The position numbers and the translations under genes were made by a program. DNA of 29,651 nt from positions 1-29,651 of the IMG/VR virus record IMGVR_UViG_3300009169_000069; one strand, written 5' to 3'. Shown here piece by piece: positions 4,595-29,354 of this stretch; the first letter of the stretch is position 1; every line of letters starts with the position of its first letter. Source of the stretch: a virus. A model generated the notes under the pieces. The model did not search any database and had not been told where the DNA came from. It saw nothing but the letters and a program-made list of their open reading frames with translations.

Positions 4595-7500
4595 TTAATT
4601 TTTTCCTACTGTAGTTCCTCTGAACTCCATATGCTTAATATCATACTTACCTTTTACTATGATAGTATGCCATCTAGCAGATACGTCAGGGTTAAACACA
4701 ATCTCAGTAGCGTCTGTATATGCCATTACAGTAGATATACCTCCTTCTATAGTAGACCCATTCAAAGAGCTTTCTGAATGGATAGTACCAGTACTAGGAG
4801 TTCTAAAGGACATTCTAACTTCCTCTGCTGATGTAAAGCCCTCTCTGAAGTAACCCATTTTACCATAGCGCATATATGAGTCAATTGGATTTTCGTCAAA
4901 TAAAGCTATCTTACCACTTTCTAATACTACGCCACCCATCAGTCCAAAGGTCTCATAGTTTACGATATTAAGAGAAGTGTTATTAAGAGGCATATAATCT
5001 ACTAATACCTTATACTTCTGCTTCATCTTACCCCACTTCTGGAGTTGTAAGTCGTATACTAATGCACCAGGGATAGTAGGATATATCGGTCCGACACTAC
5101 CATCTTGTAACAAGAATGAGGTAGGAGGGGCTACTACTGGAGCAGTGTACCAATTGATAGGGTCTACTTGTATCTCTGGGATAGTTACAGTCTCATAGTC
5201 AAGACCACAGATACTACCACTCCCAGTATCATAGAAGCTTCCTACATCTTTATCATTTAATCTAGGCTGACCTCCTCCTGCATTTAACTGGTCTTTAGTT
5301 GGTGGTGGTTTAGGATATGTCATACCACACCCACTAGCAGGAATTGTCCTAGATACTCCATTAACATCAGTATATTCCCAACCTGTAATAGTGCAATATG
5401 GCTGGTCTCCTACTAAACAATCATCTCCATCTACTGCCGCATTATAAGCAAATCTAGTACTCTTATAGCGCTCTTGAGTGGTAGGGGTAATAGTAGCCTT
5501 AGACACTGGTCCAGTAACACCTGTAGTTAAATTACGTCCTAGTACATTTATAGTAATCTTACCTGCTGAATCAGTAGTAGTACTCTGTTCTTCCCATATA
5601 GTAATTTGAGGAGGAGAATAGAAATCATTCTTATCACCTGCGGCTGCTACGGCTCTGATATAAGCAGTAGCATCCCCTACGTTACTAAAGGTAGAAAGGA
5701 TAGCTCCTGTCCAATTAGATATATTAAAGTCAACAGCAATAGTATAAGTAACAACTGGCTCATCTGCGTGCTTAGTACTTGTAATAGTATTATACTGATT
5801 ATACTCAATGCCCAATCTAAACAGACTAAATGAACAAGGTCCAATGCGTAAAGCAGGTGCAGTAAACTGAGTAACTATAGTACCTAAGTTACAATAAGAT
5901 AAGCTATCTGCTGGCTTAGCCAAACTACCATTAGAATACCCTGTATGGCTTGAGCCATTGGTATAGCTAGTACTTGTAGGACTAACTCTGCTAGTCAAGG
6001 AAGCTATGTAATTAGCTCTTGCTCTATCCTCTGCCTCCCATAAAGCTGATTGAATTGCTATAAATCTTTCAATAGTCCAATTACCATCTACATAAGGAGC
6101 AGGAGCAGCTACTAATGCAGGTCTTACAGTATGATTAAACACTGCATCTGATGGACTCATCTCATAATTAGGTACTGGAGCTCCTAAGGAAGTAGCAGTA
6201 CAAGGGTTAAGAGTCCAAGTAATGTTACCTCCTACTGGACCTTTAGATAAGAAGCAAGACCATATAGGTTTATAAAAGGTATCAGCTTTCTTAGGAGGAC
6301 TGCTCTCAGTAATTCTATCAGTCTCAGCCTGTTCTTGTTGCTCATCAGTTGTATTCTTCTCAGGAGCTCTTCCTCCTCCTACTGTATTTAGTACAGTACA
6401 AAGAGAAGTATAATCTATTACTATTTCATCAATTACCGTAGAGTCTACGATAGGAGTATCAAAGACATAAGCAGCAGGAGGTAAAGTAAATTCCTCTGTA
6501 CTTACTAAGCCATTAACATACGTTCCGTCTAATATGCCTAAGAACAGATACCTACCTTCTAAGATTTTAAGGTACACTGGAAGCTCTGACTCTTTAAGGA
6601 AGTCTGTTACCTCTGGCACAATAACCTCTGCCTTGCCTCCTTCTATCATATATAGACCATTAGAGGTATAAGCAAAGTGCTTAGTATCAGGAGTAGCGGC
6701 ACAAACTTCTCTAGGAAGTATAATACCTGACCCTTTTACCAAAAGCCTAGAGTTCCATAACTGGCTAGTAGACTCTGTTTGTGTTATTAAAAGAATACTC
6801 TTAGTAGAGTACACTACGAAATGCTCCGCCATTCCAATGATAGTAACTATCTTACCTAGTATTTCTTGAAAGATTGTATTACCTGCCATTGTTAGAATAG
6901 CGGGAGTAAAATCAGAGAAATCATCTAAGTTAGACCATGCAATACTGTTCTCACTATCCCAGAAACCTAAGCGACCACCTGCCTTAAAGATACCTTGCTG
7001 ACCTGCCATATTAAGGAAGTTAGGAGTAATAGTCTGCACTGAACCTGCTGTATATGCTACTGGGAAATCAGTATTACCTGTAGAAGGAGTTACCCAAGTG
7101 ATACTTCCATTATCCATTATGAATAAAGTCTCTACTACTGTAGGAACTACTGCCAATGTATAATCATAGTACTGCACAACTCCATTAAAACTACGATAGA
7201 ACCTATAAGTAGCTTGCCCTATGATAGTCTGAAATGCTACTGAGATAGCTCCTAAAGCAGCAGTTGTGATAGATACAAAAGCATTACCCTGTTGCCAAAC
7301 TCCTGCAATAGCCACTGAAGCCGCATAAGCATAAGTACCAATAGCCATAGTACCAGATGCCACAAATGATAATACTAAAGGACTTACAAGAGCTCCTGCA
7401 TCTGCAAACTCTAGATACTCAGTAAGACTAGCAATCTTATAGTAAACTCCTTCTTGAGCACGATAGCAATAGAAGTCATTACTAATTACGCAATGTGTCC

Positions 7501-11543: not shown

Positions 11544-12099
11544 ATTTATAGTCCCTCTGAGCTGAAAGGAACATACTATTAAAAGCCTGTTCATGCTTAA
11601 CTGCTTCCGTAGGATTACCCACATCACTATAGATAGAGGCTGTAGCCTTTGCTATAATCATGTAAGGGCTAACTTCTAGAAGCCAGAAATTAGGAGAAGC
11701 ATCTGTAAGAGTAGGAGGATATCTAAAGTAACCAATTAACAAACTAGAAGTCAGCTTACACAGACTAAGCTTAACTTCATCACCAGCTACATAGTAGACA
11801 TCTCTAGCCTCTTGATGATTCTCAAAGACCTTCTGAGGGTCTCTTTGCTCTATGTACCCTTTACAGCCTGGGCTTTTAATATATGCGAACTTACGCCATC
11901 TAGTGAAACCACTCAATGGCAGAGACTGGGCATAAAGAGCAGGGTCTACTACAAAGCTACCCTCATCCATGTCTCTAGCAAAGTTCCCTTCAATACAACA
12001 AAAGTTAATAGCAGCATTAACTTCACGTCGTATACTATCCAACTTATCAGGGCGCTTAGTTATCCTAAGTACCTCAGCTACTGCTTCTGTGAAGTTCAT
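11524..12099 (-). CDS. Head-tail adaptor / tail tubular protein A-like, 191 aa
   Basis: ATG at 12099 starts MNFTEAVAEVLRITKRPDKL, then an amphipathic helix (IRREVNAAINFCC). The aromatic-rich middle YFRYPPTL and the C-terminal helical end SIYSDVGNPTEAVKHEQAF follow. This arrangement, with helical bundle, beta middle and C-terminal helices at ~190 aa, is that of the gp11/gp4-type adaptor ring that joins portal and tail nozzle in podoviruses. The location between head genes and tail genes agrees. Identification is from overall pattern, not a catalytic motif. Confidence 0.68.
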   Translation of the reverse strand: MNFTEAVAEVLRITKRPDKLDSIRREVNAAINFCCIEGNFARDMDEGSFVVDPALYAQSLPLSGFTRWRKFAYIKSPGCKGYIEQRDPQKVFENHQEARDVYYVAGDEVKLSLCKLTSSLLIGYFRYPPTLTDASPNFWLLEVSPYMIIAKATASIYSDVGNPTEAVKHEQAFNSMFLSAQRDYKYGANYG

Positions 12100-12109
12100 G
12101 CGCTACCCC

Positions 12110-12469
12110 TTATTCTACTAGTTCTACTACGCCTACTGAAGCGAAGTATTGTAGTTCTTTAAGTACATCACCTTCGGCATCTTCATAGTAACCATATGGA
12201 TTAGGCTCTACTTTCTTGCCGTTAGGAAGTACTACTCGTTTAAGACGAATTGCTCTAAAAGAACCTTTAGGAGGCTCGTAATTAGAAGCTAAGGCTAATG
12301 CTGTAATCACATTGATAGGAGTGTTCACTACATCTGTAATAGACTTCAATGAACTACCTACTGGAATGTCCTCTATATCACCTGTAACTGCAGGTTCTTC
12401 TGGTAAGATTAGCTTAGGAGTATCTCCTGAAGCACTAGCTTTTAGCTTATCTTGTAATGTTGCTGACAT
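12110..12469 (-). CDS. Small head-region protein, 119 aa, unknown function
   Basis: ATG at 12469 follows GAGGAAATA. The N-terminal 30 residues look flexible. The C-terminal half (GSFRAIRLKRVVLPNGKKV onward, ending VGVVELVE) is a compact alternating strand/turn region containing YGYYEDAEGD. It is the first gene after the capsid terminator, so it is expressed by read-through or an unseen promoter. Position suggests a head completion or capsid-decorating protein; no family recognised. Confidence 0.6.
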   Translation of the reverse strand: MSATLQDKLKASASGDTPKLILPEEPAVTGDIEDIPVGSSLKSITDVVNTPINVITALALASNYEPPKGSFRAIRLKRVVLPNGKKVEPNPYGYYEDAEGDVLKELQYFASVGVVELVE

Positions 12470-12481
12470 ATTATTTCCTCA

Positions 12482-12533
12482 TAAAAAAGAAGCCGCTGAG
12501 GGTTCGCCTAGGAGTAGAGCGTCTCAGCGGCTA
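12482..12533 (-). terminator. Intrinsic terminator after the major capsid gene
   Basis: A 10-bp perfect stem, AGCCGCTGAG at 12491-12500 and CTCAGCGGCT at 12523-12532, encloses a 22-nt loop. On the minus strand it is followed by TTCTTTTTTAT. It lies 35 nt after the capsid stop and before the next head gene, so it should reduce transcription of everything downstream relative to capsid. Confidence 0.88.
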
Positions 12534-12567: not shown

Positions 12568-13761
12568 TTAAGCAGCCGCTGTTAAGCCTTCTACCAGAGC
12601 GCATGAGTAAGGATTAATAAGCTCAACTGCGAACTCAGTAGTCAATGAACCACCTACTGCGTCAACACCGTTCTCTACTACTTTACCGCCCATACCGTAG
12701 TCTTCAGCCTTAGTATCACGACCAGACAAGTAAGCCAGTTTAAGAGCAGCTGGTTCTACCATCAACAGAGTACCTGAACGACCTAAGCCATTGAACAGTG
12801 GGTGCTCTTTCAAGTGGATAGTACCTTTATAGAACTTGAAGCTAGAGAACTGCATACCGAAGCTAGTCTCGTTCTGGGTAATTTCTACCTGACCGTACAA
12901 GCGACCGATGTCATGCAATACTTTCATAGCAACGCTGTCTACGTAGCCAATACGCTCTGTAGGGTTACCAATATCAGTAGAGTACTGGAATGCAGTCTCA
13001 ACCATAGCAACCAACTGAGCGTACGTAGTAGTAGCAGCGGCAGTGTTAGTATTACCTGGAGCGTATTGCTCTAACGCATCAATGATACCTTGAGTAGCAT
13101 GGATAGGTGTAGCACCTGTAGTATCCATCTTAGCCTGACCCCAGATGATAGCTGTCTCAATATCCACTGAGTGGAACAGAGCACACTCTTTACGGTCTTC
13201 AGCTACGTTATCGTAACCAGCTTCTGACAGACTAGCACGAGCTGTATCAGTCAATGCCCAAGCATTACGGAAGATTTGTGTAAAGTTAGCTACGTAAGTA
13301 GTAGTCAAGCGACGTGATACTGGGCGGTTAGAACCTTCTTCAAACGCAGTACCAATTTGGAACAGTGTATCGCCAATGTTCATAGCGGCTGCTGCTACAC
13401 GACCAAAGGCACGAGTAACTGCAATTGTAGTAGCATCAGTTACAGCAGTAATACGTACGTTCTCACGAGTACGTGGGTTAAACAATACCATACCTACTGT
13501 CATACCTACTGTTGAAGGTACTACGATAGAACCATCACCAATCAGTACACCTGCCGCTAATACTTGACTAATGAAAGTCATAGTCTTAGAGAAGTAACCG
13601 TGTGTTGATGTTTTAGCCTGTGCTTTACCTGACTGTGAAGTCATAGCAAACAAAGGAGCTGAGCCGTTAGGGAAACGACGCAAGATAGTAGAAGCAAAGC
13701 TTCGTTGATTTAACTCCGCAGGGTTCTGTGGAGTACTAAAAATACCAGTAGCTAAAGCCAT
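12568..13761 (-). CDS. Major capsid protein, DUF5309 / SU10-type
   Basis: 397 aa, ATG at 13761 after AAAGGAATAAATC. The run LFNPRTRENVRITAV (residues 93-107), the segment TRAFGR, EEGSNRPVSRR (141-151) and NFTQIFRNAW (159-168) match the DUF5309 family, which contains the SU10-type major capsid proteins with the HK97 fold. The gene follows the scaffold and is followed by a strong terminator, as expected for the most abundant head protein. Codon use differs from neighbours: arginine is largely CGT rather than AGA, fitting high expression. Capsid role is well supported by family and position. Confidence 0.9.
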   Translation of the reverse strand: MALATGIFSTPQNPAELNQRSFASTILRRFPNGSAPLFAMTSQSGKAQAKTSTHGYFSKTMTFISQVLAAGVLIGDGSIVVPSTVGMTVGMVLFNPRTRENVRITAVTDATTIAVTRAFGRVAAAAMNIGDTLFQIGTAFEEGSNRPVSRRLTTTYVANFTQIFRNAWALTDTARASLSEAGYDNVAEDRKECALFHSVDIETAIIWGQAKMDTTGATPIHATQGIIDALEQYAPGNTNTAAATTTYAQLVAMVETAFQYSTDIGNPTERIGYVDSVAMKVLHDIGRLYGQVEITQNETSFGMQFSSFKFYKGTIHLKEHPLFNGLGRSGTLLMVEPAALKLAYLSGRDTKAEDYGMGGKVVENGVDAVGGSLTTEFAVELINPYSCALVEGLTAAA

Positions 13762-13792: not shown

Positions 13793-14530
13793 TTAGCCTA
13801 AGTAATCATCCCAATTAGTTACTTCTTTGGCAGACTGTTGTTGCCCGTTGCCAGTACCGTTAGAACCTTGTGGATTGATTGCGTTAGCCATTTGAGTGAT
13901 ATAGTCTTTAGCTTTAGCCGCAATCTCTTGAGGAGATGCATCAGGGTACTGTTGCGCTAATTGCTTAGCAACCTGTGTTAGCTGTGCTTTGACTACTGGG
14001 TGTGAGAAGCCAGGCGTATTGCCTAACTCTGAGGTGGTTAGTTCTTGCTTTACTTTTGACCCTAAGGATTTGCCTTCAAAGTCTAGTCTAGCGTTTACAA
14101 ATTTATCTGACAGAGCTGAATTATGAGCCATTGCTGCTTTATAAGAGTTCTGACCTACTGCGTTCATCACATCTAGCATAGCTTGTACATCGCCAGTAAG
14201 TGCTTTCTGCATTATCTCAGGGTTAACTCCTGTAGTGAAGTTTTGGCTAGTAGCTACCTTGTCTAGTGTCTCTTGTGGTAGATTAAAGCTAGGTGCTACT
14301 TCTGTCTGCTTGTTAGTATTATCAAACAATCCGCTAAATTGGTCAAGAGGATTTTGTGGAGTTTGAGAATTGTTACCATTAGGGTTAGCAACTCCATCAA
14401 GTACTCCATTATTCTGGTTAGCAGGCTGCCCTTGATTGTTAGGCTGTTGTTGGTTATTAGGCTGTTGCTGACTAGCAGAGCCTTCTGCAGGTTTCTTAGT
14501 ACCACCAAAGAATGTATCTAGTAAAGACAT
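13793..14530 (-). CDS. Capsid scaffold protein, 245 aa
   Basis: ATG at 14530. The N-terminal 70 residues are low-complexity and Gln/Asn/Pro-rich, with a repeated QQPNN unit. Residues ~80-225 are helical and charged, ending with EVTNWDDYLG. An acidic, flexible, helix-rich protein immediately upstream of the major capsid gene is the standard position and look of a scaffold that directs shell assembly and is then removed. No protease is visible next to it. Assigned by composition and synteny. Confidence 0.8.
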   Translation of the reverse strand: MSLLDTFFGGTKKPAEGSASQQQPNNQQQPNNQGQPANQNNGVLDGVANPNGNNSQTPQNPLDQFSGLFDNTNKQTEVAPSFNLPQETLDKVATSQNFTTGVNPEIMQKALTGDVQAMLDVMNAVGQNSYKAAMAHNSALSDKFVNARLDFEGKSLGSKVKQELTTSELGNTPGFSHPVVKAQLTQVAKQLAQQYPDASPQEIAAKAKDYITQMANAINPQGSNGTGNGQQQSAKEVTNWDDYLG

Positions 14531-14571: not shown

Positions 14572-14820
14572 CTACACAGCTAAGTCTACAAGGTCTGCTA
14601 AAGTAGCAATAGTACCTTGTATAAAAGCATTCTTGACTTGATAGGTATGAGGGTCTTCTACTTCCTTACCCATTACTCTATCATTTGATAAAGCCATATC
14701 TGCCGCCGCATTAGTAGCTAATATCCGAAGATACTTACCTACAGCTGGGTTAGACATTGCTTCCTTTACTATCTCTATTTCTGTTTCTGTCATTACTGCT
14801 GTCTGAAACAACTTGCTCAT
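14572..14820 (-). CDS. Small head-operon protein, 82 aa
   Basis: ATG at 14820 follows CTTAGGAGAATAGT. Begins MSKLFQTAVMTETEIEIVKE; mostly helical, no membrane segment. It lies between portal and scaffold, directly downstream of the structured non-coding stretch at 14853-14979, whose 3' edge is 33 nt before this start. The function is unknown; small proteins at this place in podovirus head operons are variable. Confidence 0.7.
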   Translation of the reverse strand: MSKLFQTAVMTETEIEIVKEAMSNPAVGKYLRILATNAAADMALSNDRVMGKEVEDPHTYQVKNAFIQGTIATLADLVDLAV

Positions 14821-14852
14821 ACTATTCTCCTAAGTTTATTATGTTGTTGGCT

Positions 14853-14979
14853 GCTCACAAAGAGCTTGGTCATGGAGCCTCTCGCTATGGCATATTGGCG
14901 AAAACCAAGGGTAGCGGGAATCCCCGCCACCTAACTTGGTTATCTTACTATGCCGCTCCTCCATGCAAGCCTTTCTTGC
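14853..14979 (-). ncRNA. Candidate structured RNA between portal and head genes
   Basis: This GC-richer stretch lies in the 178-nt gap after the portal stop. The minus strand folds into a nested stem. GCTTG (14970-14966) plus CATGGAG (14965-14959) pair with CTCCATG (14877-14871) and CAAGC (14868-14864), leaving a 2-nt bulge. Inside, GGCATA (14954-14949) pairs with TATGCC (14894-14889). Then AACCAAG (14941-14935) pairs with CTTGGTT (14909-14903). Last, GGTGGCGGG (14931-14923) pairs with CCCGCTACC (14918-14910), with one G-U pair, around a GATT loop. Flanking hairpins GCAAG/CTTGC and GCTC/GAGC compete with the outermost helix, so two exclusive folds are possible. There is no poly-U tail and no match I can name among tRNA, tmRNA, hammerhead or common riboswitches. 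Confidence 0.6.
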
Positions 14980-14998
14980 GCTCCAACCCTTCCGAGCC

Positions 14999-16966
14999 CT
15001 AGACTAGAGGCGTGGCTGGCATACCTGGGGCTGATACTTCTGATACTACTGGTGCAGGCTGTCCTGGCAATTGCAAGGCGGCTGCTTGTAGATTAGGGGG
15101 AGCTACTGCATCAGGTTGCTTAGGTGAATACTCTTCTAAGCCTCTCACTCCGCCTAACTGCATCAAGTGTGCAAACATCTGAGTAATCTTATCTCCATAA
15201 GCTTGCTGTAACATAGGAGAGTTCATAATCATATTCATACCATTAGTAAGCATCTCAACACTAGCAATCTTAGACTTAGGAGTATATCCATCAGCAATCC
15301 TAAAGCTTAATACTACACTACGTAACTCGGCAATATCAATAGTAACCTCTTCTCCAGACTTCTGACTAATGATAGTAGCATTCTCACCGTACTGGAAGAT
15401 GTTAAGTGCAATAATCTGTTTAAGAGGTGCAAAGACTTGGCACTCATACATAAGCGCAGGTAATCTTAGTCTATTATCTGAGCCGCCTATTGTATCATTC
15501 CATTCTTGTACTGACTTGTTACCCTTCTGGAACTGCCCACGCTGAGGACCATTAAGACCACTAAGCTCTTGCGAGAAGCCTACCATCTCTCTAGCATCAT
15601 TGATTGTAGTCTCAGTACCTCTCATATCAAATGGTATCTGCCTATAAGCTGCTTCTAGTCCTAAGTTACTTAGGCTCTTCAATCTAACTGGTATCTTAGG
15701 GGCTGCTGCTTTACTGTTAATGTCGCTAGGGTTAATCAAGTCAGGGTTATATAAAGCTCTATCACTTACTGCCCTACGTGCTGCTGCAAATCTAATGTTG
15801 TAGAGTGTTGAAGCTCCTTCTTGGAAAGGGATACTTCCTTCTGCAATTGATTGAGTTTGATAGCCTAGGCCATCTTCTAATGGTTGCCCCATTAAGATAG
15901 GTAAGTAGTCAAAGGCACTAATAATTCTAGTAGCCTCAATTACAGTACTCATGTTAATGATAGTAAACTTCCAAATCTGTGGAGTATTCTCCATAGGAGC
16001 TTTAATACCAAAGTCAGAAGGAAGGATACGAGCATATAGTACAAACTTCTCATAGTATGAACCATCATACATATTAGCCAGTTTCTTGCCAGTCTGAGCT
16101 GGAGCAAGTCCTAGATATACGTCCCAATTGACGCCAGCATGACGACTATTAGGAGATACATACTTACTAATAGTAGGGTGCTGCTTATAATTAGTAGACT
16201 CAGCAGACCCACTTGGCGCAATCTTCTTGAAGCTCTCCATAGCTTCAGTGACATTAAGAGCTTTCTTCTCATTGGAGAGTTTGTTAGTAAGGCGTTTAAG
16301 CTTAGTCTTGCTAATAATCTCAATATAACCTGCATAGTCTCCCTCTGCCGCCATATCACCAGGAGCTACATTATAGTCCCAGATGGTGTTGTATAAGTCT
16401 ATTCGTTTAAGTCTATTGAAGTACTTCGTTGCCTTCTTAGTGGAAGTCATGTTATCAGAAGTAAAGTCATTTAGAACAGAGAACTGTTCAATAGAAGACC
16501 AATCTACCTCTAAGGCAGACAGGTTATACTTAGCTCCGTCTTTAAACATCATGAGTAACTGTCTAATATAGCCACCTAATTGAGCATGGTCATCTATTAG
16601 AGTCTCTAAAGCCTCTGCAGCTTTCTTATTTCTAGGTGAGGATACTACTGGAAAGATAGGAGAACCTGACAAGAATACATCTGCCAGATACGCTACAGTA
16701 GAGTCTACTTGAGATACTACGATAGGAGCAGTAATATTATCTTGTTCAAAGACATTACCACAGCTTACACTACCTACTGAGTCTACTCCATCATTCATAT
16801 CGCCAGATGCTTCTGCTGCTTTATACCTTGCATAAGCTTGGTCAATCACTTCCATCTTAGTGCGTAATTCAGTAAACTGTTGTTGCTTTACTATTACGCT
16901 TTTAGCATGGGCAATAATTCTAGCCTGTGCATTCTTATCTACTGTAAAGGTAGGTTCTATTGCCAT
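14999..16966 (-). CDS. Portal protein, 655 aa
   Basis: ATG at 16966 after AGAAGGAAATCAAA. The region NVFEQDNITAPIVVSQVDST (71-90), followed by YLADVFLSGSPIF, and the later RQLLMMFKDGAKYN are typical of podovirus portals, in which helices around residues 75-170 precede the clip and wing. The C-terminal ~60 residues are Pro/Ala-rich and flexible. It follows the large terminase directly (16-nt gap). The protein forms the dodecameric DNA gate in the capsid vertex. The length of 655 aa is within the range for podovirus portals. Confidence 0.85.
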   Translation of the reverse strand: MAIEPTFTVDKNAQARIIAHAKSVIVKQQQFTELRTKMEVIDQAYARYKAAEASGDMNDGVDSVGSVSCGNVFEQDNITAPIVVSQVDSTVAYLADVFLSGSPIFPVVSSPRNKKAAEALETLIDDHAQLGGYIRQLLMMFKDGAKYNLSALEVDWSSIEQFSVLNDFTSDNMTSTKKATKYFNRLKRIDLYNTIWDYNVAPGDMAAEGDYAGYIEIISKTKLKRLTNKLSNEKKALNVTEAMESFKKIAPSGSAESTNYKQHPTISKYVSPNSRHAGVNWDVYLGLAPAQTGKKLANMYDGSYYEKFVLYARILPSDFGIKAPMENTPQIWKFTIINMSTVIEATRIISAFDYLPILMGQPLEDGLGYQTQSIAEGSIPFQEGASTLYNIRFAAARRAVSDRALYNPDLINPSDINSKAAAPKIPVRLKSLSNLGLEAAYRQIPFDMRGTETTINDAREMVGFSQELSGLNGPQRGQFQKGNKSVQEWNDTIGGSDNRLRLPALMYECQVFAPLKQIIALNIFQYGENATIISQKSGEEVTIDIAELRSVVLSFRIADGYTPKSKIASVEMLTNGMNMIMNSPMLQQAYGDKITQMFAHLMQLGGVRGLEEYSPKQPDAVAPPNLQAAALQLPGQPAPVVSEVSAPGMPATPLV

Positions 16967-16982: not shown

Positions 16983-18512
16983 TTAGAATGGAGTATTATC
17001 TATAACCACAGCAGAGTTACTGTGGTCTACTAAGTGTACCTTGTTGTTTCTAATCAGATGCCAGTACTCTGTTCTTACGTCTTCCCCATAAGCAGAGGCA
17101 TCTAATATGTCATCTTTGTTATCTTTCTTGCCTAACTTATAAGCCATAGCTTGGTAAGTAAATACAGCCCTCTCTTCTGGAGTCTTATGTGTATAAGTTC
17201 CCATCATTAAAGACTCTATGAACAGTCTAATCCTCTGTTCTTTAGTCCTACCATGTGGCTTTAGTTCTACTACTTCAATACCTTTAATCTGGAGAGCGTT
17301 CATAAAGAACTCAACCCAGAACTTAAGAGTTTGTTGATAGGCTACTGACTCAATAGCAATAACGCTAGCTCCATATTCAAAGGCTCTAGCGAAGGCTATC
17401 TCAATTACTTCCTTAGGATTGTACTTACCTGCATCTGTCTTGGCAATTACTCCTAAGTTATCATATATCTCATGCACTTGTATGACGTTATCATCACTGG
17501 TAGACCTAAATCCTGCAGGGTCTATAGTAATAAACACGCCATCTGCTACTGAATAAGGCAAGTCTATTCTTGGTAAGTCCTTCTGAAGTAGTGAAGTTGC
17601 TCTATTTCTAGGGTCATTCATTACCTCTGCGAACCAACCATCTGCTTCGTTGAGGCTCTCATCATGTAAGTAGCCCTCGTATAAGCTCTCAAGAGAGTGT
17701 ATCTCAGACCATAGAGGCTCCCCATTAGCTAGAATAGCGCCAGTAATTAGAGAAATCCAGCTAGGAGACTGTTGAAGTTGATACAGAATACAGTTCTCAG
17801 AGTACATATTACCTATATAGATTACCCATCTATTGCCTCTAGGCTCAATAGCCTTCTGCAAGGTATGTACAAACCAAGTCCTTAGTGCCGCTGATTCAGT
17901 CGGAGATGCGTCATTCTCCTTAGTCTGCATATCATCACAGATAATAACATCAGGTCTACTATTGTTTATATTCGTGCCACGTAAAGCAGTTCTAGCACCT
18001 TTAGCCATAATAGTAACGGGGCGCCCATTGTACATACACTGTTTAGTTGAAGTATTATCGGTATAGAGATTAGAATTCCATTTACCATATATTGCCTCCA
18101 TATTAGCAGAACCCATGATATCATTCAAGTCGGCTATTATATTCTCCGCATTAGGCTGTGTTGCAGACACTATAAGGAAGAAGGAAGCTATATTATAGGC
18201 TATCATGTAAGCTACTATAATCTTGATAAACGTAGTCTTAGCGTGCCCACGAGGCAACCCTAAGGCAAATCTTAATATCTTACCTATATCTGCAGGATTA
18301 CGCTGCATCATAAGCTCAAAGCAAGCTAGATAGAAGTAAGGTAGAGCTGATATGGCTACATCAGGAAGAGCTACGCCAGCAAAGAAGTTGATATCTACTC
18401 TGCCTCTCTCATAAGCTTCTAGCAACCCTACACTTACTTGGGCTGTATCACTCTGAGAAGGTTGCTGACTAAGCTCCTCTTGAAATATTTGCTGCACAGA
18501 AGTACTAGCCAT
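16983..18512 (-). CDS. terL: Terminase large subunit (TerL), 509 aa
   Basis: ATP-driven DNA-packaging motor with nuclease. The ATPase half shows a Walker A variant LPRGHAKTT (residues 86-94), Walker B VIICDD (189-194) and a coupling motif IYIGN (231-235). The nuclease half has an RNase H-like acidic set: Asp331 in FITIDPAG, Glu388 in AIESVAY, and Asp468/Asp471 in KDDILDASAY. The first gene to its left encodes the portal. The start is ATG at 18512, one nucleotide after the stop of a 42-aa gene, so it is probably re-initiated. Length is normal for a podovirus TerL. The RGHAKT form of Walker A occurs in other podovirus terminases. Confidence 0.95.
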   Translation of the reverse strand: MASTSVQQIFQEELSQQPSQSDTAQVSVGLLEAYERGRVDINFFAGVALPDVAISALPYFYLACFELMMQRNPADIGKILRFALGLPRGHAKTTFIKIIVAYMIAYNIASFFLIVSATQPNAENIIADLNDIMGSANMEAIYGKWNSNLYTDNTSTKQCMYNGRPVTIMAKGARTALRGTNINNSRPDVIICDDMQTKENDASPTESAALRTWFVHTLQKAIEPRGNRWVIYIGNMYSENCILYQLQQSPSWISLITGAILANGEPLWSEIHSLESLYEGYLHDESLNEADGWFAEVMNDPRNRATSLLQKDLPRIDLPYSVADGVFITIDPAGFRSTSDDNVIQVHEIYDNLGVIAKTDAGKYNPKEVIEIAFARAFEYGASVIAIESVAYQQTLKFWVEFFMNALQIKGIEVVELKPHGRTKEQRIRLFIESLMMGTYTHKTPEERAVFTYQAMAYKLGKKDNKDDILDASAYGEDVRTEYWHLIRNNKVHLVDHSNSAVVIDNTPF

Positions 18513-22542: not shown

Positions 22543-22971
22543 ATGAGCTACGTTATAGTAAAACCAGAAGTAGTAGAATTTGAAACCTTAGACAACTTAC
22601 AACTTAAGAAGCACATAAGAAAAGGCTTTCTCTCTAGTCTTATACTAAGTAAGGAAGATTTAGTAAGAGGTTATATAGAAGTAAGTGGTAACAAGTACTG
22701 CCTATACATAACAGACGAAGTAAGAGTGTTCCTCTGTATAGCCAATAAGACTGATAGACTAAATACTCTAGCTTCTTTTCAATGGCATACTAATGATGCA
22801 AGGATAGTACTCTGTAAGGTATTAGAGCATAAGAATAGAAAGAACCAAGAGTATAAGAAAGCAGTATGTAATAGTAAAACAGTAACAGCTAGAAAGAGTA
22901 AATTAGATACACTAAGAAAGATGTTTAGTATTAACAACGAAACTAATAACGAAAGCGAGACAGTATCATGA
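22543..22971 (+). CDS. Hypothetical protein, 142 aa
   Basis: The frame opens with GTG at 22534, but ATG at 22543 (MSYVIVKPEV) sits behind GAGGTG and one base after the upstream stop, so I prefer it. The N-terminal ~85 residues look like a mixed alpha/beta domain (KYCLYITDEVRVFLCIANK). The C-terminal ~50 residues are very basic (KNRKNQEYKKAV, TARKSKLDTLRK) and could bind nucleic acid. No family recognised. Confidence 0.75.
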   Translation: MSYVIVKPEVVEFETLDNLQLKKHIRKGFLSSLILSKEDLVRGYIEVSGNKYCLYITDEVRVFLCIANKTDRLNTLASFQWHTNDARIVLCKVLEHKNRKNQEYKKAVCNSKTVTARKSKLDTLRKMFSINNETNNESETVS

Positions 22972-23228
22972 TTATCAAATACTATTCAGTAGATGCAGGT
23001 ACTATAGAGACTATGACTACTTCTAATGGGTACTTAGCTAGTGTAAGAAACTACAAATACAGTAATACCTTTGCTACAATAGAGGAAGCTCTAAGAGCCT
23101 ACAATATGTGCATAACCTATCCCTTCTGCGAAATTACTATGACAGTAGAGATTAACGGCAAACAGTATGATATTGAACTTAACATAGCAGAGAACTTAGT
23201 ACAGGCTACTAATTCAGGAGAGATATAA
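22968..23228 (+). CDS. Hypothetical protein, 86 aa
   Basis: ATG at 22968 overlaps the upstream stop in ATGA, indicating coupled translation; no strong Shine-Dalgarno. The product begins MIIKYYSVDAGTIETMTTSN and is beta-rich with a helix near residues 39-47 (IEEALRAYN), ending with another strand pair (VEINGKQYDIELN). It looks like a small alpha/beta fold; function unknown. Confidence 0.7.
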   Translation: MIIKYYSVDAGTIETMTTSNGYLASVRNYKYSNTFATIEEALRAYNMCITYPFCEITMTVEINGKQYDIELNIAENLVQATNSGEI

Positions 23229-23599
23229 TGAGACTATCTAAATTAAGCACTACTACTATACTAGACTTAGAGTTCTACTTAGTAGAATTACGCAACATAC
23301 TAGATATATATGTATCAGAGCAAGCACAGTACTCTTTATATCTATGCTTATACAAAAGCAGTTACTTAGAGTGGAAGACTTTTAAAGTAATAAGACCTAT
23401 ACTAAAGCAAGCAATAGACAAAGAACTTAATAAGACCCAATCTCTATCCTTTGCAGTACACGCAGATAGACTAGGATTAAGAACTGAGAAGGACAATATG
23501 TTCTTAGTAGGTAATCAATTCAGACTAGCTTTTGTCAATAAGCAACTAAAGCAGGTACAGAGAACACTAGTTAAAAGGAACTTACAAAATGGCTACTAA
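23228..23599 (+). CDS. Hypothetical protein, 123 aa, paralogue of the next gene
   Basis: ATG at 23228 overlaps the previous stop (TAATG) and follows AGGAGAGAT. It has an N-terminal helix around TTTILDLEFYLVELRNIL and basic helices. The C-terminal block around GNQFRLAFVNKQLKQVQR aligns with GNKYRVTFMNRLIRRVRK of the next protein. The two are about the same length, with the same order of helical then strand-helix parts. A likely tandem duplication; the basic end suggests nucleic acid contact. Confidence 0.7.
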   Translation: MRLSKLSTTTILDLEFYLVELRNILDIYVSEQAQYSLYLCLYKSSYLEWKTFKVIRPILKQAIDKELNKTQSLSFAVHADRLGLRTEKDNMFLVGNQFRLAFVNKQLKQVQRTLVKRNLQNGY

Positions 23600-23975
23600 A
23601 GTAGAATTGAAAGACCTTACTCTAACAGAGTTACAGGATATTAAGCAAGCACTCTTTACTCTTAAAGCTAACTTCTATACTAGGAGGAAAGCAGACCCTC
23701 AAGGTAGTGCCTTTCTATGCTGTATTATACAAAGGCTAGTAAAGGATAATCTAATCTCTGAACTAAGTTCTAAGTACTTACAGTATGAGATAGAATTAGA
23801 AGTAGGTGGTAGTAAGATACAGACTCTAGGAAGTGTAGCCTATAAGCTGAATAAGAACCCTTATAAGTTTAGAGAGTCTACTGACGAATATGTTACTAAA
23901 GGCAATAAGTACAGAGTAACTTTTATGAATAGGCTAATACGCAGAGTGCGTAAAGCTATCGCAGATAAGGAATAA
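23589..23975 (+). CDS. Hypothetical protein, 128 aa, paralogue of the previous gene
   Basis: ATG at 23589 overlaps the upstream gene by 11 nt, with AAAAGGAAC as ribosome binding site. The opening LTLTELQDIKQALFTLKANF parallels the ILDLEFYLVELRNIL helix of its neighbour. The end, GNKYRVTFMNRLIRRVRKAI, parallels that protein's C-terminus. Strongly basic at the end. No catalytic motif and no recognised family. Confidence 0.7.
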   Translation: MATKVELKDLTLTELQDIKQALFTLKANFYTRRKADPQGSAFLCCIIQRLVKDNLISELSSKYLQYEIELEVGGSKIQTLGSVAYKLNKNPYKFRESTDEYVTKGNKYRVTFMNRLIRRVRKAIADKE

Positions 23976-23979
23976 TAAA

Positions 23980-24387
23980 ATGAACACTATAAACAAGATA
24001 CTGAACAGACAGGACTTTACTATTAAAGGAGTACACGTAAGGACTCTCACTGATAATATACTAAGACAGAAACTTAGTAACATTAACTATGTAATACTAC
24101 TAGCTACTAAAGACGAGCCTAATACTCCTATTCTTTACCAACGCTATGCAGACTACATAGACAAAGAGAGCTTAGATAGTCTAAGACTACAAGAATGTGA
24201 ACAGCCTTATCATATAGACTCTAACAGATACCCTCTTAGTAGTAAGCATATAAAGCATATAGCTTGGTGGGATTGGGTAAGGGATAACTACCCTAATGAG
24301 CAATCCTCTATACTAGGGCATTATGTACAGTCTGGGGAATACTTACAGGAATTTGAGGATTATTACAGTAAAGGAGTAGAGGTATGA
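23980..24387 (+). CDS. Hypothetical protein, 135 aa
   Basis: ATG at 23980 behind AAGGAATAATAAA. The product has a central block rich in Tyr, Trp and His (HIAWWDWVRDNYP) and an acidic C-terminus (LQEFEDYYSKGVEV). No membrane segment and no nucleotide-binding motif. Its stop overlaps the next ATG (ATGA at 24384). Unknown function within the compact early operon. Confidence 0.7.
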   Translation: MNTINKILNRQDFTIKGVHVRTLTDNILRQKLSNINYVILLATKDEPNTPILYQRYADYIDKESLDSLRLQECEQPYHIDSNRYPLSSKHIKHIAWWDWVRDNYPNEQSSILGHYVQSGEYLQEFEDYYSKGVEV

Positions 24388-24623
24388 AAGCCTTACAATT
24401 TACAGTAGAGGCAGGAGACTGGGAGAGCGTTAACAAAAGACTACAACTAGTCATTAAGTTTAAACAGATATACCCTAGCTTAGATATAGCCTCTGACAAA
24501 TACGATAGACTACTACATGAAGATGGATACGGTCATAGAAGTATGTATATCATGCACAATAATATAAAGTACTTAGTACTGAAAGGAAGTCCTTATGTCC
24601 AACTTACACAAACCAACTCTTAA
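24384..24623 (+). CDS. Hypothetical protein, 79 aa
   Basis: ATG at 24384 with a strong AAAGGAGTAGAGGT site, overlapping the upstream stop. A small alpha/beta protein (MKALQFTVEAGDWESVNKRL, then YIMHNNIKYLVLKG). The 3' end overlaps the helicase start by 29 nt, so the two are probably co-translated. No family recognised. Confidence 0.68.
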   Translation: MKALQFTVEAGDWESVNKRLQLVIKFKQIYPSLDIASDKYDRLLHEDGYGHRSMYIMHNNIKYLVLKGSPYVQLTQTNS

Positions 24624-26751
24624 AGAAGTACTAGCAGAGAAAGCTAGACTAAAAGAGTTAAGTAGTAGTCCAGTAGTAGCTAGTCTAAGCGAAAATTCAG
24701 AACGTACAGAAAACGCTTTAAACGAGTTAAAAAACAAAATCAATACTAATATATTAGTTAGTAACGAACACGCGCCAAAAACGCTTAAACCTACGTTACA
24801 AGAGATTTTAAACGGTAAAAAAGCTAGTTTACCCATTAAACCAAGCGAGGCGGTGCATATTCCTGCTACTAACACTAGCACCTTTACTAAGACAGACCTT
24901 GCTAGTGCTATTGCTAATGCCTCTAAGCAGATTACTCTTAAAGAGAGACTTGCTATAATGGCTCATACGCAGAAGCAAGTAGCTCAAGAGCTTAACATTA
25001 AGACAGTAGAGGAAGCTAAGGAGTTTATTAGTAAGCCTACTGCTAGAGAGGCAGGTAACTTGCCTGATAATGTAGGGCAAAGCTTGAAAGATAGACTAGC
25101 AGGCTTAGTAAAGAAGCACGTACCTGAATTAGCAGTCCCAGTAGAGGAAGCAGTAAAGGAGACTGTTAGACAGAATGAGACATTCTCACTAAACATTACT
25201 CTTAATGAAAGACAGCAAGCCGCAGTAAACTTTGCAGATAGTGGAAAGAGCTTTGTTCTACTAGGTGCGGCTGGTACAGGTAAGACTTCTAGTGAAGGTG
25301 CTATGCTACATAGAATACTAGATAGTAATACTATAAGTACTACACAGTTCAAAGGTGGGCGAGATGTTCCTAGTGTAGCTGTATGTGCTTATACCAGACG
25401 TGCTGCCGCTAACTCTGCTAAGGCTATTCTTAAAGACCCTATACTAAGAGAGCAACTTACTGGTAACATCATGACTATCCATGCTTTACTAGAGTATATC
25501 CCAGAGACTTACTATGATGTAGTAGATGATAAAGAGAAGTTCCGATTTGCTCCTACTAAGACTGCTAAGAACCCTCTATCAATTACTACTCTAATCATTG
25601 AGGAGGCTACTCTAGTAGGCTTAGACTTATGGGAGTACTTGTATGATGCTCTACCTTATGATGTACAGATTATCTTTGTAGGAGATATTAACCAGTTACC
25701 TCCAGTATTCGGACCAAGTATACTAAACTATGCTCTTACTAAGCTACCAGTAGTAGAGCTTAAAGAAGTATATCGTCAAGCAGAAGGTTCTCCTATCATT
25801 AACAATGCTCATAGGATACTCAAAGGAGAGAAGTTAGTAGATGGTTCTAATGCTCAAGGTAAGTTCCAGCTTATTACAGGTAAGCAAGATACTAAGATAG
25901 GACAAGCTAAGACAGCCGCGGCACTTGCTAATATGTTCAAGCAGTTCTATGATAATGACTTGTATAATCCTGAAGAGGATATGATACTATCCCCATGGAA
26001 TAAGCAAGAGCTAGGTACAGATGCTATCAATACAATCATTAGCGAGTTCCTTAGTATAAAGCATCAGAAGCTAGTGTACGAAGTTATAGCAGGCTTTCAT
26101 AAACTCTACTTAGCAGAGGGAGATAAGGTAATCATTAACAAGAGAGACGCTTTGATAGTTAGTATAGAGCGTAACCCAGCTTATGTAGGCAAAGAACCTG
26201 CTATGGCAGGACATGACCTTAGTAGATACGGAGTAAGACGAATGAGTGCAGAGAACGCTCACTTGTTAGACGAACTTAGCTTAGATGATGAGATTGATAG
26301 CATAGACTATAGTAACTTCTCCTTAGAAGATATGGAAGAGACTGCTATGGAACGTAAGATGCAAGCCTCTCATAAGGTTATGGTAGCGTATGATGATGGT
26401 TACACAGATACTATTACAGCCGCAGGAGACTTAGCACCTAGTGTATTCCAACTAGGCTATGCTATGACAGTACATAAGTCTCAAGGTTCTGAGTGGCGTA
26501 GAGTATTCATTATATTCCACCCTGACCACCTTATCAGTCTGAATAGAGAGATGCTTTATACAGCTATCACTAGGGCTAGGGAGGAAGTCTACTTAATAGC
26601 TAAGAGGTACGTAGTAGATAAGGCAGTAGATGTACAGAAGGTTAAGGGTAATACACTAGAGGATAAGATTGCACTATTCAACAGTGGATACAAGGAGATG
26701 AACTTAGGCTCTATCCGAGTTACTAAACCTAGCTTGGGTGTACGCGACTAA
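24595..26751 (+). CDS. SF1 DNA helicase, RecD/Dda-like, 718 aa
   Basis: ATG at 24595 behind AAAGGAAG. Helicase motifs in order: Q-like NITLNERQQAA (~200-210), Walker A GAAGTGKT (224-231), Walker B LIIEEA (333-338), motif III VGDINQLPP (362-370), motif V TVHKSQGSEW (625-634) and motif VI YTAITRAR (655-662). These place it with RecD2/Dda-type 5'-3' helicases. Dda of T4 unwinds DNA and strips proteins from forks, so a role in replication start or recombination is likely. The first ~200 residues precede the helicase core, look partly disordered and carry several copies of a short LKExLA-like motif. No second domain such as nuclease or primase is seen. Confidence 0.93.
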   Translation: MSNLHKPTLKEVLAEKARLKELSSSPVVASLSENSERTENALNELKNKINTNILVSNEHAPKTLKPTLQEILNGKKASLPIKPSEAVHIPATNTSTFTKTDLASAIANASKQITLKERLAIMAHTQKQVAQELNIKTVEEAKEFISKPTAREAGNLPDNVGQSLKDRLAGLVKKHVPELAVPVEEAVKETVRQNETFSLNITLNERQQAAVNFADSGKSFVLLGAAGTGKTSSEGAMLHRILDSNTISTTQFKGGRDVPSVAVCAYTRRAAANSAKAILKDPILREQLTGNIMTIHALLEYIPETYYDVVDDKEKFRFAPTKTAKNPLSITTLIIEEATLVGLDLWEYLYDALPYDVQIIFVGDINQLPPVFGPSILNYALTKLPVVELKEVYRQAEGSPIINNAHRILKGEKLVDGSNAQGKFQLITGKQDTKIGQAKTAAALANMFKQFYDNDLYNPEEDMILSPWNKQELGTDAINTIISEFLSIKHQKLVYEVIAGFHKLYLAEGDKVIINKRDALIVSIERNPAYVGKEPAMAGHDLSRYGVRRMSAENAHLLDELSLDDEIDSIDYSNFSLEDMEETAMERKMQASHKVMVAYDDGYTDTITAAGDLAPSVFQLGYAMTVHKSQGSEWRRVFIIFHPDHLISLNREMLYTAITRAREEVYLIAKRYVVDKAVDVQKVKGNTLEDKIALFNSGYKEMNLGSIRVTKPSLGVRD

Positions 26752-29235: not shown

Positions 29236-29250
29236 ATAGTATCTAGCCTG

Positions 29251-29316
29251 TAATAACATAAGTGGAGAGAGTACCTCACCGTCTAGTATTCTTTTTATAC
29301 ATAGCTTATGTTATTA
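29251..29316 (+). repeat. 12-bp inverted repeat around a 42-nt loop
   Basis: TAATAACATAAG (29251-29262) and CTTATGTTATTA (29305-29316) are perfect inverted copies in the 119-nt gap after the DUF6378 gene. The loop contains GTGGAGAGAGTACCTCAC, able to form a small inner stem, and CTTTTTATAC. There is no U-tract after the right arm, so simple termination is unlikely; an operator or processed mRNA boundary is possible. Confidence 0.75.
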
Positions 29317-29354
29317 TGGAGTAGGTATTACAGATAGAATAACAGGAGAACGAT

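Follow-up and report, generated by a model that had tools for sequence, protein, structure and literature searches.

A probable member of a set of hairpin RNAs at the portal/capsid gene junction of podoviruses

The window, by which we mean the whole 29,651-base stretch analysed here, is an IMG/VR virus record from a podovirus. Its portal protein is 51% identical to the portals of EBPR podovirus 3 and Polaromonas phage Tiera, and ~38% identical to those of the Pseudomonas aeruginosa phages PaP2, 119X and PaMx41 (Fredfastierviridae, Jamesmcgillvirus). The head genes run on the minus strand in the order terminase, portal, a 178-nt gap, an 82-aa gene, a gene in the scaffold position and the major capsid gene. 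Upstream of the gap (14821-14998) lies the portal gene (14999..16966, 655 aa; phrog_15554 portal, E 1.4e-135). Downstream come the 82-aa gene (14572..14820), whose function is unassigned and whose product is 36% identical to that of Tiera_006 at the same place; the 245-aa scaffold-position gene (13793..14530, phrog_16263), directly before the capsid gene; and the capsid gene itself (12568..13761, phrog_1328). An ordinary intrinsic terminator follows on the same strand (12491..12532, AGCCGCTGAG...CTCAGCGGCTTCTTTTTT), and similar ones occur after the capsid gene in many relatives. The window also encodes a small-terminase-like gene, of terminase type but distinct from the large subunit (phrog_16503), and at 29237-29330 carries an imperfect inverted repeat with 26-nt arms that are 77% complementary.

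The gap, whose sense strand is the minus strand, holds a structured non-coding element (14840..14998), and covarying RNAs occupy the same site in sister clades. An initial annotation had described four nested helices and a GATT apical loop, and these are present on the minus strand as stated. In the MFE structure, a closing helix joins GTTGG (14983..14987) to CCAAC (14846..14850) around an outer stem of GCTTG+CATGGAG (14959..14970) with CTCCATG-AC-CAAGC (14864..14877); inward, the fold continues with a second stem (GGCATA, 14949..14954, with TATGCC, 14889..14894), a third stem (AACCAAG, 14935..14941, with CTTGGTT, 14903..14909) and the apical hairpin GGTGGCGGG-GATT-CCCGCTACC (14910..14931). 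The fold includes only one G-U pair. A possible 5' hairpin, GGCTC-GGAA-GGGTT with G-U pairs counted, can be read directly after the portal stop (14985..14998). The AGGAG ribosome binding site of the 82-aa gene (14827..14831) is outside the main stem and starts 21-22 nt after the element, close to the 25 nt or so first given.

The fold is far more stable than that of shuffled sequence. Folding 14821-15000 of the minus strand against shuffled controls, a check proposed with the initial annotation, gave -67.1 kcal/mol versus a shuffled mean of -50.9 (z -4.35, 0/200 shuffles); the 178-nt gap alone gave z -4.1 (0/500), and the core hairpin first reported (14853..14979) has an MFE of -57.5 with z -5.5 (0/1000). 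A sliding scan places the lowest MFE of the entire window here. The plus strand of 14821-15000 folds well too (-57.8, z -3.1), because the element is a near-palindrome. The gap is indeed richer in G+C than its surroundings (~0.55 versus ~0.41), but this rise continues for ~150 nt into the 3' end of the portal gene, and is therefore no argument by itself. No convincing reading frame was found that would give the gap a coding origin. Nor is there an intrinsic terminator at the window element in the sense of a stable hairpin with a U run immediately after it: what was flagged there is only the apical hairpin plus CTTGGTTTTC, which lies inside the larger stem and is not conserved in kin.

Relatives were retrieved from IMG/VR with terminase and capsid as baits (the portal, used as an IMG/VR bait, returned none); bacterial genomes gave no hint of a host and held just three distant relatives of the capsid. 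Site occupancy was compared at 110 distinct related loci, anchored on the capsid gene, as the longest non-coding run between portal and capsid. At the 93 loci lacking the RNA this run has a median of 28 nt and reaches 100 nt in two, neither well folded. The RNA-bearing rows, window included, have gaps mostly of 112-245 nt that fold strongly, and among the 110 loci every gap above 121 nt is a strong fold. At the portal junction itself the interval is -8 nt in EBPR podovirus 3 and 9 nt in Tiera, i.e. no element, and lies between about -8 and 30 nt in nearly all terminase-found IMG/VR relatives. When 139 loci were scanned for folds (18,954 windows), the very first rank went to the gap before gp10 of 119X, which is 175 nt long and lies at the corresponding place, after gp09, which in turn follows the portal gene. 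Other strong folders in the relatives, post-capsid ones included, were set aside as mostly terminators or coding sequence.

In the capsid tree, three basal lineages of a 71-row group have the RNA throughout. One is class A, the Pseudomonas phages PaP2/119X/PaMx41 and kin (the PaP2/119X group of 16 near-identical records, L117 and L172); another is L119 with L232; the third is a ten-member clade comprising class B (L222, L209, L228, L231, L207, L213 and L203) together with L234, L235 and L218. Rows L164, L218 and L235 of the tree were automatically labelled as lacking the RNA; L164 is PaP2, and L218 and L235, whose model scores are weak, were assigned an element by eye. In most lineages the element precedes the small gene, while in L119 and L232 it comes after it, right before the scaffold gene. 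Aeromonas phage P5, outside the 71-row group, has a shorter head-site element. The 55-row clade to which the window belongs is without the RNA except for the window itself, and the window's sister L006 lacks it. The initial annotation had held that homologous phages without the segment would speak against an RNA, and on this the relatives divide: three sister clades carry one, but the nearest relatives of the window phage do not. At L007:3817-3980, a 54-aa ORF (MPKELEKRLRKEAAAKG...) takes the place of the RNA at the portal/small-gene junction, so the site accepts insertions. In L016, L020 and L021 the portal gene ends ~500-700 nt later than in kin, and an extra stretch or gene may sit between terminase and portal.

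Double changes were counted in the two classes. Class B has them at 17 of 41 pairs (0/500 shuffles), with a covariation score of 0.387 against 0.176 +/- 0.023 when shuffled and at most 0.08 in slid controls; class A has them at 8 of 47 pairs (1/500 shuffles). The L117 element matches that of the 119X group by blastn (E 2e-20 to 1e-17) as non-coding DNA, between phages whose capsids are only 61-63% identical. G-U outnumbers A-C in paired columns of both classes (25 v 2 and 20 v 1), although these counts are tilted in that direction, the sense strand having been the basis of the structures. Of 17 head-site elements, 16 are more stable on the sense strand. The G-U excess, which a DNA cruciform would not give, and the sense-strand stability argue for RNA rather than DNA, and the alignments indicate that the head-site element acts as a sense-strand RNA in the clades of classes A and B. 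Loop nucleotides in both classes, and the outer stem in class A, are conserved beyond the need for pairing. Rfam searches with the window element and its kin, at the gathering threshold and at E up to 10, gave nothing relevant, and a scan of IMG/VR with the class B core pattern returned only the seven known class B contigs. These results support an undescribed structured RNA of these podoviruses at the portal/capsid site. To that extent the initial proposal of an undescribed structured RNA holds, for a covarying, non-Rfam element of sister lineages; for the window copy, homology is only suggested.

The window resembles the RNA-bearing set in its gap of 178 nt (>100 nt) and in its multi-helix sense-strand hairpin with z below about -4. 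Covariance models were built from relatives of classes A and B, another check foreseen at the outset; neither model (R1, R2) finds the window element, and a model of the window element found no relative. Its best global alignments have z of 2.8 (L232) and ~2 (119X). R1 does recognise L119, which had been left out of it, at the correct position (E 0.012), and L232 aligns to L119 at z ~7; there is thus a chain 119X-L172-L119-L232, to whose end the window appears weakly attached. By eye, the GGAA-loop hairpin after the window's portal stop resembles GATTC-GGAA-GAATT of 119X, and the closing helix GTTGG/CCAAC is similar to GAATT/AATTC in 119X and L117 and to TATTC/GAATA in L172, a correspondence between the window and class A that is suggestive only. 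Searches with the element by blastn against phages and plasmids gave chance matches only, a 16-mer scan gave 24 chance-like matches with no alignment beyond 19 nt, and scans with 19- and 22-mers gave no exact copy in viral or bacterial collections; there are no further copies in the 29.6-kb record, which may be incomplete. With shared architecture, no significant sequence similarity and nearest relatives that lack the element, the window copy is a probable, not proven, member of the portal/scaffold-junction RNA set: place, size and architecture speak for membership, which sequence does not show. Because the window alone in its 55-row clade has the element, its copy either survived several losses or is a newcomer to this position.

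Two relatives also carry palindromes dispersed through the genome. In the L233 phage (G017, IMGVR_UViG_3300033407_000030), a search of whole records with R1 found three more copies (E 5e-8, 5e-8 and 5e-5), and a motif search brought the total to six (L266:7807-7935, L266:16805-16937, L267:5054-5184, L267:5452-5583, L267:14117-14249 and L268:1064-1194). They have the ends GGAGTGGC...GCCTAGCGTA and a TAGCGT loop in common, while their stems differ, with compensation at 9 of 17 pairs (a covariation score reached by 0/500 shuffles) and equal numbers of G-U and A-C (2 v 2), i.e. no G-U excess; copies within one genome are only ~69% identical. Phage P5 (L275, OM519319.1) has five large palindromes in addition to its head-site element, at 4960-5120, 12078-12252, 17952-18118, 37960-38130 and 45055-45236, built on a three-way-junction core (GTCAAGGG..CCCTTGAC) that resembles the class B core. 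Four of the five fill intergenic gaps and one lies in the 3' end of CDS P5_0037. Dispersed copies mostly follow gene direction, with one per genome opposed. No Phage_integrase (tyrosine recombinase) or Y1_Tnp domain was found in 10 records, and an attC-like reading was dropped when the box order proved wrong by eye. It seems that the family exists both as dispersed copies, which may act as DNA, and as a fixed copy in the head operon, which behaves as RNA. What these multi-copy relatives inherit is structure and not sequence, an unusual trait in a dispersed element. An RNA-less relative, L293 (record G021), has four very strong hairpins within 3.5 kb (~22740-26200), one of them in repeated GCAATAATTGC-like units.

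The explanation that we prefer, with a probability of roughly 0.4, is that the element belongs to the late polycistronic head-gene message and comes from an undescribed set of 130-180-nt hairpin RNAs, found in several lineages of this podovirus group where the portal gene meets the block of small gene, scaffold and capsid. The window copy would be a fast-diverging member of that set. It would act in cis where the portal and capsid messages meet, as a stem-loop for processing or protection. Such a stem-loop could allow the portal message, needed in few copies, to differ in stability or abundance from the scaffold/capsid message, needed in many. Portal protein is needed in about a dozen copies per particle, and scaffold and capsid proteins in hundreds; the RNase III sites of T7 are a precedent for such differences in message stability or abundance. 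The mid-message site and this contrast in copy number favour a role at the level of the transcript (processing, protection or a stability boundary), as does the position after the small gene in L119 and L232, which means that the element is not tied to one start codon. Neither a promoter-like site above chance nor a conserved terminator was found at the element.

The dispersed copies raise the possibility, which we think unlikely but serious, that the element is a mobile palindrome, the window copy having inserted independently into an intergenic site that tolerates it, and the conserved head-site copies being of long standing and perhaps having acquired a role as RNA. This would fit the shared ends and compensating stems (9/17 pairs) of the six G017 copies, the intergenic gaps filled by nearly all of the five P5 palindromes and the head-site one, the presence of the window in an otherwise element-less clade, the single G-U pair of its element, and the ORF at the same spot in L007. 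But copies that are ~69% identical within a genome and have compensated stems are unlike the products of recent transposition, the 10 records lack both kinds of recombination enzyme, the head-site position is kept in three clades, and the window element has no exact copy in the viral and bacterial collections or elsewhere in the window. A combined account is put forward just as tentatively: palindromes whose stems drift with full compensation would have become anchored at the portal/capsid boundary and be used there as RNA in head-gene expression or head assembly, a new class of phage element in a group to which the PaP2/PaMx41-like Pseudomonas phages belong. That the window merely holds a chance hairpin in an unconstrained gap is hardly credible; z values near -4 to -6 do occur in sliding windows elsewhere when few shuffles are used, but the core was matched by none of 1000 shuffles, has the lowest MFE of the window, and sits at a site where gaps above 121 nt contain only strongly structured sequence.

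A trans-acting RNA for head assembly or DNA packaging, after the manner of phi29 packaging RNA, is distinctly doubtful, even with a location among packaging and head genes and a size near the 174 nt of phi29 pRNA. Conservation of loop and class A outer-stem bases beyond pairing need speaks for a binding partner, but the window encodes a terminase-type gene besides the large subunit (phrog_16503), and pRNA phages are not known to have a classical small terminase; moreover, no promoter of its own was seen, neither the pRNA family nor any other in Rfam is matched, and most relatives with the same head genes do without the RNA. Structure is kept while sequence varies, as one study (PMC12670572) reports for pRNAs. 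The initial annotation had likened the alternative small hairpins GCAAG..CTTGC and GCTC..GAGC, both of which do exist in the window, to those of RNA switches. In 119X and L117, the Shine-Dalgarno region is able to form part of a 3' hairpin that cannot coexist with the closing helix; in a switch, alternative pairings would make the next gene's ribosome binding site accessible or mask it. A cis translational switch of this kind is nonetheless improbable: the window's alternatives are not conserved elsewhere, L172 breaks the exclusive 5' hairpin of class A (two broken pairs), the downstream gene varies between lineages, and the window's ribosome binding site is outside the main stem.

The head operon of known Pseudomonas aeruginosa phages contains a conserved structured RNA that annotations have so far missed, and it offers a directly testable handle on how a tailed phage sets its portal:capsid ratio, or on the use of RNA in head assembly outside the phi29 group.

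Among known systems, RNase III hairpins of T7-like phages are long imperfect stems between the genes of polycistronic messages, sometimes several per genome. The elements here share the long imperfect intergenic stem in a phage message but are longer, and in classes A and B some nucleotides of the loops are conserved; their processing is a proposal. Phi29 pRNA (RF00044) is likewise a phage-coded structured RNA of similar length with a head/packaging association and a structure conserved over varying sequence, a property also described in PMC12670572. It differs in lying at the genome end, not inside a head-gene operon; a small-terminase-like gene is present here, the element is absent from most relatives, and cmscan of 14780-15060 found no match to the pRNA family model at E up to 10. 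The CBASS-activating phage RNA (cabRNA) is a structured RNA from a phage packaging-gene region as well: the first, of ~400 nt, maps within terminase genes, and from phage to phage the cabRNAs have no sequence in common (PMC10686824). Ours is instead a dedicated non-coding element, covarying and conserved; given the precedent that host defence can sense structured RNA from packaging-gene regions (PMC10686824), its sensing by host defence is possible as a side effect. REP elements, attC sites and other dispersed palindromes are GC-rich with conserved ends and variable stems, as are the copies in our two multi-copy relatives; but no Y1 transposase or tyrosine recombinase accompanies these in the records, the attC-type order of boxes was not seen by eye, and the conserved head-site copies show the G-U bias typical of RNA.
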